Made by a program: the position numbers and the translations under genes. A DNA stretch of 64,000 bases, taken from assembly GCF_000379765.1 (NCBI RefSeq), contig NZ_KB903445.1, positions 62,001 through 126,000 on the forward strand. Reading direction: 5' to 3'. Below, in pieces: positions 29,094-32,456 of the stretch. Under the pieces are notes generated by a model, which ran no database searches, had not been told where the DNA came from, and was given only the letters and a program-made list of their open reading frames with translations. The stretch's first letter is position 1. Each line of letters begins with the position of its first letter. The stretch is from Flexithrix dorotheae DSM 6795. Lineage in GTDB: Bacteria; Bacteroidota; Bacteroidia; Cytophagales; Flammeovirgaceae.

Positions 29094-29681
29094 ATGGGTA
29101 CTTTAAGTAGAATATTGATTCAAGGAGTGGAGAGTGCAACCGTGGTTGAACTATTAAAAAACCATTATAAAACAGGAAGAACACAAAATTTTGATTATGA
29201 ATTTAAAGAAGTATTTCTGGACCAGATGAATTATTCTTTTATCGTATTTGATGCATTTCTTAAAAACTGGACGGAGCTTATTGTTGATTTTTATAGTGAT
29301 GTTAGAGAACATGATGAGTTTCTCATAAAGATATCTCTGGATTTTCAGACTAAAGTAATTTTTGGATACGAACAAACAACTTTAGGCGATGCTAAACTAG
29401 CGGTCTGGAAAAATGGAAATGTTGTGAGGTCGATATATCAAAAGTTAAACTTGGAAAAAGATTTAATAGAAATGAAGGAGAATTTTGGGCATCGATTTTT
29501 AAATGAAGCTGGCTTTAAATATCCTGTTATTGGAGGAGATTGTTCAGGATTTAAAGTTCTTGATTTTGATGATATACAGACCCTTTTCCAAGATGCAGGG
29601 TTTACTGGAGAAAAAAGATCTAATAAAGTTAAAGAGTATATTCATTTGGAATATCATAAAAATAAACACACTAAAAATTAA
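29094..29681 (+). CDS. protein of unknown function
   Basis: A 195-residue cytoplasmic-looking protein without a signal peptide or TM segment: MGTLSRILIQGVESATVVELLKNHYKTG, then 'DQMNYSFIVFDAFLKNWTELIVDFYSDVREHDEFLIKISLDFQTKVIFGYEQTT' and 'FDDIQTLFQDAGFTGEKRSNKVKEYIHLEYHKN'. The alternation of short strands and helices with an acidic middle resembles small orphan proteins, possibly immunity-type. I do not recognise a family. The gene stands alone, with a TA repeat in front and the tRNA-like locus 225 bases behind. Confidence 0.65.
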   Translation: MGTLSRILIQGVESATVVELLKNHYKTGRTQNFDYEFKEVFLDQMNYSFIVFDAFLKNWTELIVDFYSDVREHDEFLIKISLDFQTKVIFGYEQTTLGDAKLAVWKNGNVVRSIYQKLNLEKDLIEMKENFGHRFLNEAGFKYPVIGGDCSGFKVLDFDDIQTLFQDAGFTGEKRSNKVKEYIHLEYHKNKHTKN

Positions 29682-29762
29682 GCAATTTAAATCCCCATAG
29701 TCCCACCGATTTTTTTATCATTTTGAACCTGCTCTAAAAAAAAATTTCAATAAAAAATTCAC

Positions 29763-29781
29763 TACGCAAAAAAACTGCGTA
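29763..29781 (+). terminator. small hairpin downstream of the orphan gene
   Basis: TACGCA (29763-29768) and TGCGTA (29776-29781) flank a 7-nt A-rich loop. A T-rich tract follows only loosely, so terminator function is uncertain. Confidence 0.35.
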
Positions 29782-29839
29782 CTTCTCCATCACTTTTGAA
29801 TCATCGATAGATAAAAACGTTCTTTTTGAATAAAAATAA

Positions 29840-29899
29840 CAGGTCAAGCATTAGTTACTTCAATTTAACTACCATTCTAAATACTAATGCAATTACCTG
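29840..29899. promoter_or_regulatory. large inverted repeat just upstream of the tRNA-like gene
   Basis: CAGGT-CAA-GCATTAGT (29840-29855) is mirrored by ACTAATGC-AATT-ACCTG (29883-29899): thirteen paired positions around a small internal loop, with 27 nt between the arms. It ends seven bases before the first base of the acceptor stem. It could be an operator, or the 5' hairpin of a longer RNA that includes the tRNA-like part. Confidence 0.5.
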
Positions 29900-29906
29900 T
29901 TTATTT

Positions 29907-30019
29907 GAGGCAGTAGCTCAGCTGGTTGAGCAGGTTAGCTTTTAATTTCAGTAGGTCAATAAAAGTTTACTTCAGCGCTTCTAACGCCCGGGTCGTGGGT
30001 TCGAATCCCACCTGCCTCA
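29907..30019 (+). tRNA. tRNA-like gene with about 40 extra bases in the anticodon region
   Basis: The acceptor stem is perfect: GAGGCAG (29907-29913) with CTGCCTC (30012-30018), discriminator A, and no encoded CCA. The D-arm is GCTC-AGCTGGTT-GAGC (29916-29931). The T-arm is GTGGG-TTCGAAT-CCCAC (29995-30011), preceded by a normal five-base variable loop (29990-29994). Between D-arm and variable loop there are about 58 nt in place of about 18, making 113 nt in total. Two anticodon-loop-like words occur there: CTTTTAA (29939-29945, Lys UUU type) and CTTCTAA (29978-29984, Arg UCU type, with only three stem pairs). GTTAG (29934-29938) pairs with CTAAC (29981-29985), and CTTTTA pairs with TAAAAG (29960-29965), giving an extended arm. 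It could be an interrupted tRNA, a fusion, or a dedicated tRNA-like RNA. Confidence 0.65.
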
Positions 30020-30035
30020 CAAAAAAGGTCAAAAT

Positions 30036-30085
30036 CAACTTACTACAAATTGGTTATTGCGGTTCGAATCCGCCTTTGAAAGTTG
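30036..30085 (+). ncRNA. second tRNA-like fragment (T-arm with short closing stem)
   Basis: GCGG-TTCGAAT-CCGC (30059-30073) is a textbook T-arm with the invariant TTCGAAT loop. CAACTT (30036-30041) pairs with AAGTTG (30080-30085) around it. This looks like a reduced tRNA-like module, or the tail of a second decayed tRNA, 17 bases after the first. It lies in the leader of the large gene at 30204. Confidence 0.4.
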
Positions 30086-30203
30086 GTTAATTACACTTTA
30101 AAATTTAGGTCAATTGCTTCTTACTTCCGGGGAAATCCCCACCATTTTAAGGTAATGACCAGAAGCAAAATTACCTGATTATTGATTTAAAAATGAAAGA
30201 AAA

Positions 30204-32456
30204 ATGAAAAGGGATTTGTTACGTGTTTCCATTCGACAAAAAGCAGTGTTCATCTCCAAAAATATGGAGGTAAACGGTGGAGTGGCTGAATTAAATGAAA
30301 CAACCGGTGTTTTACTGGCCAATTGTTCAAAGTTGGGGTTTACCTTTTCCGAAGAATTACTCCACAAGATCAATGGGATTTCGCCAAAAGCGAAACTTGG
30401 ATTATTGGACTTGCTTAAGGAAATCACCGGAGTGAATAAAAACTGGACTCCGCTGGTGAAGCAGTGGGATATTCCAACAGGAGAAACTTTGGTAGACCAT
30501 ATCGTGACCTGGTTTGCCAATGTTTTTCAATCAAAAAATGGAACAATACTACCTTGCGGGCATTTAATTCCAAAGCACACTTTTCCGCTGGAAAGGTATA
30601 ATGGATGTCCTTTTTGTGGGACTCCTTTTGAGTTTGAAAAACTGGTATATAAAGGTGGGCAAAACAAATTGAAAACACTGGAATTATGGACCGAAGATGA
30701 TGTAATTCATCACCTAAAAAGTTTGTTGGAGTCTTCTGTAGCCCTGGATGCCACACAGGCGGATAATCTTAAAATATTGTTAGGGCACTATGCCTTACCA
30801 GTTGGTGTGGAAATTAAAATGAAAGAGACTTTAATGCTTGCCATTGATGCCCTGGTGGAACACGATAAGGGCTCAGCAGCAGGCCAGCTCTTCCATACTC
30901 CCAATGATATTCTGAGGTACCTATGGTATAAACATACCGGCTTCCTGCAGATTATTGAGCCTAAAACGATTAAAGCAAGAATGGCCAAAAACGCCCAAAA
31001 CTTCCATCCTCAATTGGATAAAAGTAGTGAGGTGAAAGTTCAGGCCGCTCAGGAGCTGAAATTAAAGTTTGGGAGAACTGCGAGTAGGCGATATGCCACC
31101 TGGCTTAATGACTTGAAAATGGATATTAAAGCTCAGTGTGAAAATATGCATCCTAAGCGGGGAATATGGGTAAGGGTCATCAGGGCATTACGTTTGGCTG
31201 AATATAGCAAAAGGAAAGGCTTTGAACAACTAGCGAGGTTGTTGGATGATTTTTACAATGAAAATTATGAGGTTTGGCAGGGTAAAGTAAATGAGTCCAG
31301 GCTAAAAATGGATGCGGATACCACCTTCAGGTTGTTAAAGCAACGACCAGGATTATTTGCAAGGTCGTTGTTTTCCACCATGCTTTGGTTTGGCCCTGAG
31401 GCTGCAATTAAGGAATTCAGAACAGTGATGGATAAAATTCCAGCTCGTTTAATTTTTACCTTAAACATGTATGCAGAGGTTTATTTTGATAAAAATCAAA
31501 AAAGAACAGCTAAACCTCTTGGGGGGATTAACAAGAGAATTCCGGTTAATCCATTATTGCAATTGTATGAGGAAAAAGACTTGAGACGTATGCAAAAGTT
31601 AGTGCAGGGATTGAGTCTTGAGGTGATTAAAGGGAACTTTGCCAAGGCTGAAAACCCTAACAGGACGATCTTTATAGCGGAAGGATTGGATAAAATTCCA
31701 ATTGCCATAGGGGATAGGAGTGAACAACTGCAGGACTTACCAGAAGTTCCTGTGGGCACAAGGTTCAAAGTGGAAGGTGAAACTGTAAGATTATTCCTAC
31801 AATGGGGAGAAGGTTTGCCCGCTCAACACCTGGATATGGATTTAAGCTGTTGGGTTATTTATGAAAATAAAAATTATCCTATGTTTTGTTCGTATGCGCA
31901 ACTGGATGTTCCGGGGTGCAGCCATAGTGGAGATATCCAATCGATTCCGGATCAGGTAGGAACAGCGGAATATATTGAAATAGACTTTCCTGATTTAACA
32001 ATAGCAGCCGCCAGATATGTGATTTTCACCTGCAATTCGTACACTATTGGGAGTCTTTCTCCAAACCTGGTTGTAGGCTGGATGAATAGTAAGGATAAGA
32101 TGGATATATCTCACAAAGGAGTGGCTTATGATCCTACTGCAGTTCAGCATCAGGTGCGGATTAAGCAGTCTTTAACCAAAGGAATGGTGTTTGGGGTTTT
32201 AGATGTTGAAAAAAAGGAGATTATCTGGATGGAAATGAATTTTGGAGGGCAGGTAGTTCAAAACATGAATCAGGAAACTTTGGAAGGTTTGTTGCAGAAA
32301 CTGGATGCAAAGTTGAAAGTTGGCGATCTTTTAAAATTGAAAGCCGAAGTTCAGCAGCTGGAGGTGGTAACCGAACCAGAACAAGCCGATGAAGTCTATG
32401 ATTTAAATTGGGCTTTAAATACTGCAGAAGTGAGTAAGTTGTTTATGGGTAGTTAA
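30204..32456 (+). CDS. large protein with RING-like zinc site and TerD-like domain
   Basis: This 750-residue cytoplasmic protein has three parts. Near the N-terminus a compact metal site, Cys118-Gly-His120 ... Cys135-x2-Cys138 (LPCGHLIPKHTF...YNGCPFCGTPFE), resembles a prokaryotic RING/zinc-ribbon finger. A helical middle follows (about 190-460, including RVIRALRLAEYSKRKGFEQLARLLDDFYNENYEVW). Residues about 515-690 read like a TerD-type beta-sandwich: VRLFLQWGEGLPAQHLDMDLSCWVIYENK, 'CSHSGDI' near 572-578, and 'AEYIEIDFPDLTIAAARYVIFTCNSY'. TerD domains bind calcium in tellurite/phage-stress systems. The gene follows the tRNA-like locus by 118 bases and has its own terminator, so RNA and protein may form one unit. 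Domain calls are by eye; function unknown. Confidence 0.7.
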   Translation: MKRDLLRVSIRQKAVFISKNMEVNGGVAELNETTGVLLANCSKLGFTFSEELLHKINGISPKAKLGLLDLLKEITGVNKNWTPLVKQWDIPTGETLVDHIVTWFANVFQSKNGTILPCGHLIPKHTFPLERYNGCPFCGTPFEFEKLVYKGGQNKLKTLELWTEDDVIHHLKSLLESSVALDATQADNLKILLGHYALPVGVEIKMKETLMLAIDALVEHDKGSAAGQLFHTPNDILRYLWYKHTGFLQIIEPKTIKARMAKNAQNFHPQLDKSSEVKVQAAQELKLKFGRTASRRYATWLNDLKMDIKAQCENMHPKRGIWVRVIRALRLAEYSKRKGFEQLARLLDDFYNENYEVWQGKVNESRLKMDADTTFRLLKQRPGLFARSLFSTMLWFGPEAAIKEFRTVMDKIPARLIFTLNMYAEVYFDKNQKRTAKPLGGINKRIPVNPLLQLYEEKDLRRMQKLVQGLSLEVIKGNFAKAENPNRTIFIAEGLDKIPIAIGDRSEQLQDLPEVPVGTRFKVEGETVRLFLQWGEGLPAQHLDMDLSCWVIYENKNYPMFCSYAQLDVPGCSHSGDIQSIPDQVGTAEYIEIDFPDLTIAAARYVIFTCNSYTIGSLSPNLVVGWMNSKDKMDISHKGVAYDPTAVQHQVRIKQSLTKGMVFGVLDVEKKEIIWMEMNFGGQVVQNMNQETLEGLLQKLDAKLKVGDLLKLKAEVQQLEVVTEPEQADEVYDLNWALNTAEVSKLFMGS

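Follow-up and report, generated by a model that had tools for sequence, protein, structure and literature searches.

A module-bearing tRNA-like RNA encoded beside a RING protein gene in Flexithrix dorotheae and its possible kinship with bacterial Y RNAs

Bacterial Y RNA is described as a circular permutation of tRNA (PMC11472068), the Ro60 RNPs of Bacteroides thetaiotaomicron are stated to include Y RNAs (PMC11277228), and TROVE proteins paired with tRNA-like partners are already presented as RNA-repair platforms (PMC7824862). A further report describes an RtcR-controlled operon composed of Rsr, Y RNA, and RtcBA that responds to damaged tRNA (PMC7790460). YrlA (RF02553), the partner of Ro60/Rsr, contains the D, T, and acceptor helices of a tRNA and, where the anticodon would be, an additional stem. 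A system built from Band-7/SPFH, a tRNA-like element, and RtcB was reportedly described by Burroughs and Aravind in 2016.

Described here is a locus in a 64,000-nt stretch of the genome of Flexithrix dorotheae DSM 6795 (hereafter referred to as the window), in which a 113-nt tRNA-like element precedes the gene for a RING/TROVE-like/TerD-like protein. As in YrlA, the helices of a tRNA are accompanied by an additional stem at the anticodon position. Unlike YrlA, however, the window RNA is un-permuted with free acceptor ends, its module has another sequence, and no RF02553 match was found up to E 10 within positions 29680-30210. Whereas the Ro60/TROVE RNPs contain Ro60 proper (TROVE plus vWA), the RING/TROVE-like/TerD-like protein of the window locus is paired with an RNA module that is distinct and repeated. 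The Band-7/SPFH-RtcB system likewise places a tRNA-like element beside the gene for an RNA-repair scaffold, and the F. dorotheae genome itself contains one such set with the same palindrome as that of the window locus. The partner in that system is Band-7, whereas a GGTCAA/TTACTTC module marks the RING-linked RNA. A module-bearing tRNA-like RNA was not found described in the titles and opening lines of abstracts that were surveyed, which is no proof of its absence. On balance, we consider it likely that the 113-nt element is the tRNA-mimicking part of a noncoding RNA locus that acts like a bacterial Y RNA, in an RNA-damage regulon with a Ro60-like RING protein.

Architecture of the tRNA-like element and its module

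The features of the locus are listed in Table 1. The sequence-only reading had described perfect acceptor, D, and T arms and had suggested a covariance search tolerant of an insert. A covariance search bears out the description. The Rfam tRNA model RF00005 matches the plus strand with 44.9 bits (E 2.5e-6), spans the entire 113-nt element, and provides the sole gathering-level Rfam match in the window. ARAGORN made zero tRNA calls across the same stretch. Pairing is complete in the acceptor (7/7), D (4/4), and T (5/5) stems, the conserved loop bases are present, and the order of the parts (acceptor, D, anticodon, T, acceptor) is that of a normal tRNA.

Table 1 Features of the F. dorotheae locus and of a second locus in the same genome (window positions unless a contig is given)
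Feature	Location	Strand	Remarks
Palindrome	29763-29781		TACGCA-N7-TGCGTA; putative operator; before the module array
Module 1	29842-29897	+	order GGTCAA-N7-TTACTTC...N7'-AATTACC; 7/7 Watson-Crick stem pairs; exact pattern match
tRNA-like RNA	29907-30019	+	acceptor 29907-29913/30012-30018; D arm 29916-29931; T arm 29995-30011
Split 5-bp anticodon stem and loop	29933-29989	+	GG (29933-29934) and GCG (29975-29977) pair with CGCCC (29985-29989)
Module 2	29935-29974	+	40-nt hairpin set between the two parts of the anticodon stem's 5' strand
Module 3	30027-30095	+	T-arm-like hairpin (GCGGTTCGAATCCGC) in the loop; 7 pairs, 6 Watson-Crick
Module 4	30108-30175	+	7/7 Watson-Crick pairs
Protein P0001, 750 aa	30204-32456	+	RING/TROVE-like/TerD-like, from Prok-RING_4 and structure comparison
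Second RNA-repair locus (L274)	genome G000, C2:162500-169500		palindrome, YrlA-like/tRNA-like array, Band-7/SPFH, RtcB, divergent WYL gene

The anticodon arm had been read as replaced. It is, instead, interrupted: a 5-bp stem and a 7-nt loop persist around the 40-nt hairpin. Two anticodon-loop words had been pointed out, one of which, CTTCTAA (29978-29984), is the anticodon-like loop, with UCU at 29980-29982; the other, CTTTTAA, lies in the stem of the module. In the minimum free energy fold (z of -2.1 versus shuffled sequences), the module hairpin and the anticodon hairpin with its inner 3 bp and 7-nt loop are observed, and the outer GG-CC pairs of the split stem are absent.

The inserted hairpin belongs to a family of modules that can be written as GGTCAA-N7-TTACTTC paired with N7'-AATTA[C/T]C, where N7 and N7' are complementary. 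The module is found in two orders, being closed at one end or the other. Four copies precede the protein gene, the second of which lies inside the tRNA-like element. This second copy follows the order N7'...GGTCAA-N7-TTACTTC, with GGTCAA at 29954-29959, the stem strands at 29938-29944 and 29960-29966, and TTACTTC at 29967-29973. Six of its seven stem pairs are of the Watson-Crick type, and its ATTA[CT]C word is poor, with three of seven letters retained. The words of the third copy also deviate, namely TTACTAC for TTACTTC and AATTACA for AATTACC.

The F. dorotheae genome encodes at least two ordinary tRNA-Lys(UUU) genes and one ordinary tRNA-Arg(UCU) gene, the count that the sequence-only reading had proposed to make, and the tRNA-like element is therefore dispensable for the decoding of these codons. 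When the insert is disregarded, all five pairs of the anticodon stem are perfect, as expected if the element were simply a tRNA-Arg(UCU) in decay that contains an intron or has undergone a single insertion. No intron family matches it up to E 10, however, an ordinary tRNA-Arg(UCU) is present, and inserts of the same family are found in 39 of 50 homologous loci and also outside of tRNA bodies. The decayed-gene explanation is close to untenable.

Recurrence of the module and the tRNA-like element

Modules were counted upstream of the protein homologues in 50 Bacteroidota loci, among them the window locus (L013). Three duplicates (L001, L045, and L035, of L013, L005, and L004, respectively) and two loci lacking upstream sequence (L009 and L019) had been removed. 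With the 7-nt spacer fixed in the search pattern, 209 copies were found, ranging from 1 to 9 per locus, of which 201 have the exact word GGTCAA and 177 the exact word TTACTTC. In a separate test the spacer was freed to vary from 3 to 14 nt, and all 172 exact GGTCAA...TTACTTC pairs proved to have precisely 7 nt between the words. With the partner strand located solely by its ATTA[CT]C anchor, 146 of 202 modules form six or seven stem pairs, the seven copies without an ATTA[CT]C candidate having been omitted. When the stems were dealt out among the copies in 500 trials, the mean was 30 and the maximum 46. The copies selected by pairing contain 1090 Watson-Crick pairs, 96 G-U pairs, and 67 others. 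A pattern scan of IMG/VR returned at least 120 stretches, with one match in each of the 80 that were listed, and these were judged to be chance occurrences.

All 172 of the exact copies lie upstream of the gene on the sense strand; none are antisense, within the gene, or downstream of it in the same loci. The last module begins 60-130 nt ahead of the start codon in 42 of the 50 loci. Such a placement would suit a cis-acting 5' leader, whereby the RING protein, by binding the copies in its mRNA, would hold down its production, with the tRNA body serving as a processing signal. This purely cis-regulatory reading is the main rival to a Y-type RNA, and we regard it as unlikely. Speaking against a leader are the as many as nine copies per locus, the complete tRNA bodies with compensatory changes, the copies in two genomes (G113 and G018) that are distant from the RING gene or on another contig, and the related tRNA-like arrays that accompany Ro60 and RtcB genes.

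Under a strict scan, 39 of the 50 loci have module-bearing tRNA bodies, 53 in all, and some of the bodies contain two modules. The 11 loci without a complete body, including four of the five Bacteroides loci (L006, L008, L010, and L011), weigh against the Y RNA reading. A covariance model, referred to as R1, was built from 29 sequences, namely the window copy and 28 of the other 33 among 34 non-redundant, single-module tRNA-likes. The window copy, itself one of the 29 rows, scores 96.9 bits with this model (E 4.2e-20). Two-sided changes occur in 22 of the 28 pairs of the alignment, and 96.9% of its cells are paired, as compared with 33-51% when the partners are slid. By this comparison of homologous loci, the recurrence of the tRNA-like element with its module exceeds chance. 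A small one-off insertion or decay, as the sequence-only reading had entertained, is thereby set aside, and so is the notion of an ordinary tRNA in the relatives with an insert unique to the window: module and split stem recur together with compensatory changes. Simple decay, an intron, and a one-off insertion were all ruled out by this conservation.

A perfect 5-bp split anticodon stem with a 7-nt loop is observed in 34 of the 53 bodies (null maxima of 14 and 21), and 26 of the 53 additionally have U33 and a purine at position 37 (null maxima of 13 and 6). The remaining 19 bodies, without a perfect 5-bp split stem, count on the other side, and their anticodon loops are less clear. The anticodons in the split-stem loops differ by species and include UUU, UCU, GUU, GUA, GUC, GUG, UUG, and UCC. 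In two loci, L002 and L003, ARAGORN finds 2 and 11 ordinary tRNA genes, respectively, upstream of the module array.

The distribution of the protein is patchy: it is encoded in 43 of 241 genomes of the order and in 11 of 395 genomes sampled across the phylum, with the F. dorotheae genome belonging to both sets. An R1 hit of at least 63 bits is present in 35 of the 241 genomes, and all 35 carry the protein. No such hit occurs in the 198 genomes without it, where scoring covered no more than 14 candidates per genome under strict filters. The 63-bit line was chosen after the scores had been viewed, and the best ordinary 73-nt tRNA reaches 61.4 bits. Eight protein-bearing genomes fall under the line (G001, G003, G093, G101, G142, G159, G220, and G233), and one genome without the protein (G216) has a related tRNA-like at 59.1 bits, just below it. 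Likewise, all 29 genomes with at least three exact matches to the module pattern encode the protein. On the strength of this distribution, the tRNA-like element and its module are co-inherited with the RING protein. That a functional tRNA mimic is tied to the downstream protein had been proposed earlier; the tie holds across the genomes, and the word functional is argued from conservation.

Some module-bearing tRNA-likes stand apart from the RING gene. One in genome G018 (L265, C21:30458-30582) scores 74.8 bits, with the RING gene on another contig, and those of L218-L220 in genome G113 (contigs C9 and C45) lie away from the RING gene. In genome G092 (L216/L217, C1:331300-378200), ∼45 kb of DNA splits the array between the tRNA-like element and the last module. 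A 20-bp direct repeat identical to the 3' end of the tRNA-like accompanies the insertion, and an adjoining ORF gives a match to PF00589, the phage integrase family (5.9e-8). In G113, integrase arm DNA-binding domains (PF17293) come after two isolated tRNA-likes (L219 and L220). As judged from these arrangements, integrases exploit the tRNA-like genes as they do tRNA genes, which accounts for some of the separated copies. The earlier suggestion of an integrating element is thus apt for the 3' end of the tRNA-like in a relative and does not apply to the anticodon arm, the insert of which is unexplained by integration. The integrated element, and inverted repeats with hypervariable stems, might also be expected if the repeats acted as folded DNA, in the form of cruciforms or recombination sites, and not as RNA. 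The toleration of G-U pairs, the complete tRNA bodies with their T loops, and the restriction to the sense strand speak against folded DNA, which we hold to be very improbable.

The partner protein and its genomic neighborhood

The RING assignment of P0001 is based on PF14447 (Prok-RING_4), which matches residues 113-139 with 27.8 bits against a gathering cut-off of 27. The MXAN_6230/SCO0854 RING family (NF041916) matches residues 11-687 with 142.6 bits, far under its cut-off of 600. The predicted structure has a pLDDT of 68.8 and a pTM of 0.44. The TerD structures 3ibz, 2qz7, and 2kxt align to residues 524-699 with Z-scores of 10.7-12.8. Pfam detects neither TROVE (PF05731) nor a vWA domain in P0001 up to E 10, and the TerD-like fold occupies the place of the latter. 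PF05731 matches nothing in the entire F. dorotheae genome at E 0.001.

When residues 150-491 were folded alone (pLDDT of 71.5), the six best rows in the structure comparison were all Ro60, with Z-scores of 6.7-8.1 over 242-263 of the 342 residues and rmsd values of 8.2-9.8. The first row that was not Ro60 had a Z-score of 6.5 over 88 residues. Z-scores in this range at such rmsd values can reflect a common helical arrangement and not Ro60 kinship. Given the moderate model confidence and the large rmsd, the relation of the helical domain to Ro60 is probable, albeit unproven. A Foldseek search of the PDB with the whole protein gave no row at E of 0.001 or less; the five best had rmsd values of 27-36, and a TerD structure was sixth. 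A sequence search of solved structures returned three rows with a best E of 0.21, PADLOC gave zero matches for the four proteins examined, and the protein scan of IMG/VR revealed no relative.

The 9.5-Mb F. dorotheae genome has the palindrome in the form TRCGCA-N7-TGCGYA twice, once at 29763-29781 of the window and once at C2:166808-166826. In a scan of 46 loci allowing for up to two mismatches and an arm gap of 4-10, 29 have it no more than 125 nt before the first module, as compared with one of 46 in the reversed control. The 17 loci without it count against the overall reading. The second genomic site divides a WYL-domain gene (PF13280) from an oppositely oriented set composed of a tRNA-like array, Band-7, and RtcB. 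Two RF02553 matches, with E-values of 7.7e-6 and 2.5e-5 and below gathering, fall in this array. The divergent gene matches WYL, WCX, and PhyH. By eye, a further long tRNA-like can be seen between the Band-7 and RtcB genes, for which there is no Rfam hit up to E 1.

Twenty palindrome regions of relatives, away from RING genes, were hand-picked among the matches listed, mostly for an A-rich spacer. In 13 of these, WYL, Ro60, RtcB, or Band-7 homologues are encoded, as compared with 0 of 17 non-RING control loci, a contrast that arises in part from length, given that the controls measure 2.3-3 kb and the test regions mostly 9 kb. The seven regions without a repair gene are L277, L278, L280, L282 (which has only a RING fragment), L284, L286, and L287. 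RtcB, WYL, or Band-7 homologues also flank 9 of 54 RING loci, a set that still includes the duplicates L001, L045, and L035. From these gene orders, a WYL-domain gene in Bacteroidota may occupy the place held elsewhere by rtcR. When R1 was applied to 11 loci at the palindromes of Ro60, RtcB, or Band-7 genes, the 21 resulting hits scored 22-50.5 bits, and several were 127-159 nt in length. As these scores lie in the range of ordinary tRNAs, the arrays are at best loosely related to the RING-linked RNA.

Genome G216 contains tandem, insert-bearing tRNA-likes between a Ro60 gene (TROVE, 3e-29) and an RtcB gene (4e-83) in the region C10:316000-327000 (L270). One sub-gathering YrlA match straddles two successive tRNA-likes, beginning within the first and ending within the second. 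Note that two readings of these tandem units are possible, namely permuted YrlA and tRNA-likes in the un-permuted order.

Homologues elsewhere also have RNA-repair genes as neighbors. In Variovorax (L209, NZ_LR594667.1, 3950-6735), a RING_4 homologue is divergent from rtcR, and in Vibrio an RNA ligase gene lies ∼3 kb downstream of the homologue. A distant homologue in Rhodococcus phage Weasels2 (L215) is situated among tRNA genes with RtcB ∼3 kb downstream. No module-bearing tRNA-like was found at the single homologue loci of Variovorax, Streptomyces, Deinococcus, Vibrio, and two phage contigs. Downstream of the Variovorax homologue, two hairpins with TTCCTTCTAA loops resemble the TTACTTC loop by eye. 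Another phage record (MT835874.1, L210) has a distant homologue near tRNA genes and a tmRNA.

The homologues in tRNA-rich phage contigs, the RNA-repair setting of the locus, and the U33/R37 loops atop perfect split stems would be in keeping with a role of the tRNA-like as a bait or competitive decoy, in which the intact anticodon loop would engage incoming anticodon nucleases, their attack being sensed or buffered by the bound protein. The authors of the report that covers YrlA suggest that its tRNA-like domain may competitively inhibit the nuclease, and YrlA itself is said not to be cut by the Salmonella nuclease (PMC7790460). The latter observation, and the approximately one-half of copies without a clear anticodon loop, count against a bait, which strikes us as quite improbable as the principal role.

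Proposed role of the tRNA-like RNA

Viewed together with its relatives, the 113-nt RNA is most likely an un-permuted relation of the Ro60-Y RNA systems placed within an RNA-repair regulon. The module array would be transcribed, and the Ro60-like domain of the RING protein would bind the module. The tRNA body may be matured in the manner of a tRNA, with processing, stability, or tRNA imitation as its possible uses, and it would allow the complex to imitate or to recognize tRNA, perhaps damaged tRNA. A WYL-domain regulator could read the palindrome and induce the locus upon RNA damage, probably of tRNA, and the resulting RNP would then join in surveillance or repair together with RtcB. In a tentative extension, to which we give limited credence, the un-permuted, tRNA-mimicking Y RNAs would form a class not described before, bind the RING/Ro60-like/TerD-like protein through the strict module, present their anticodon loops as baits for nucleases, and feed a WYL-controlled RtcB regulon.

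If correct, the RNA would represent a second architecture for a tRNA-mimicking Y RNA, un-permuted and with the extra stem inside the anticodon stem, and the tandem units of genome G216 may reveal how permuted YrlA relates to the un-permuted mimic or how the permutation arose. On the extended reading, the anticodon loops would serve as baits particular to each lineage, through which the RNP detects an attack by anticodon nucleases. With a defined repeated motif and a defined palindrome in hand, both the role of bacterial Y-type RNAs in RNA repair and the switch for RtcB operons in Bacteroidota would become testable, and the RING/TROVE-like/TerD-like family would gain an RNA partner and a regulon.
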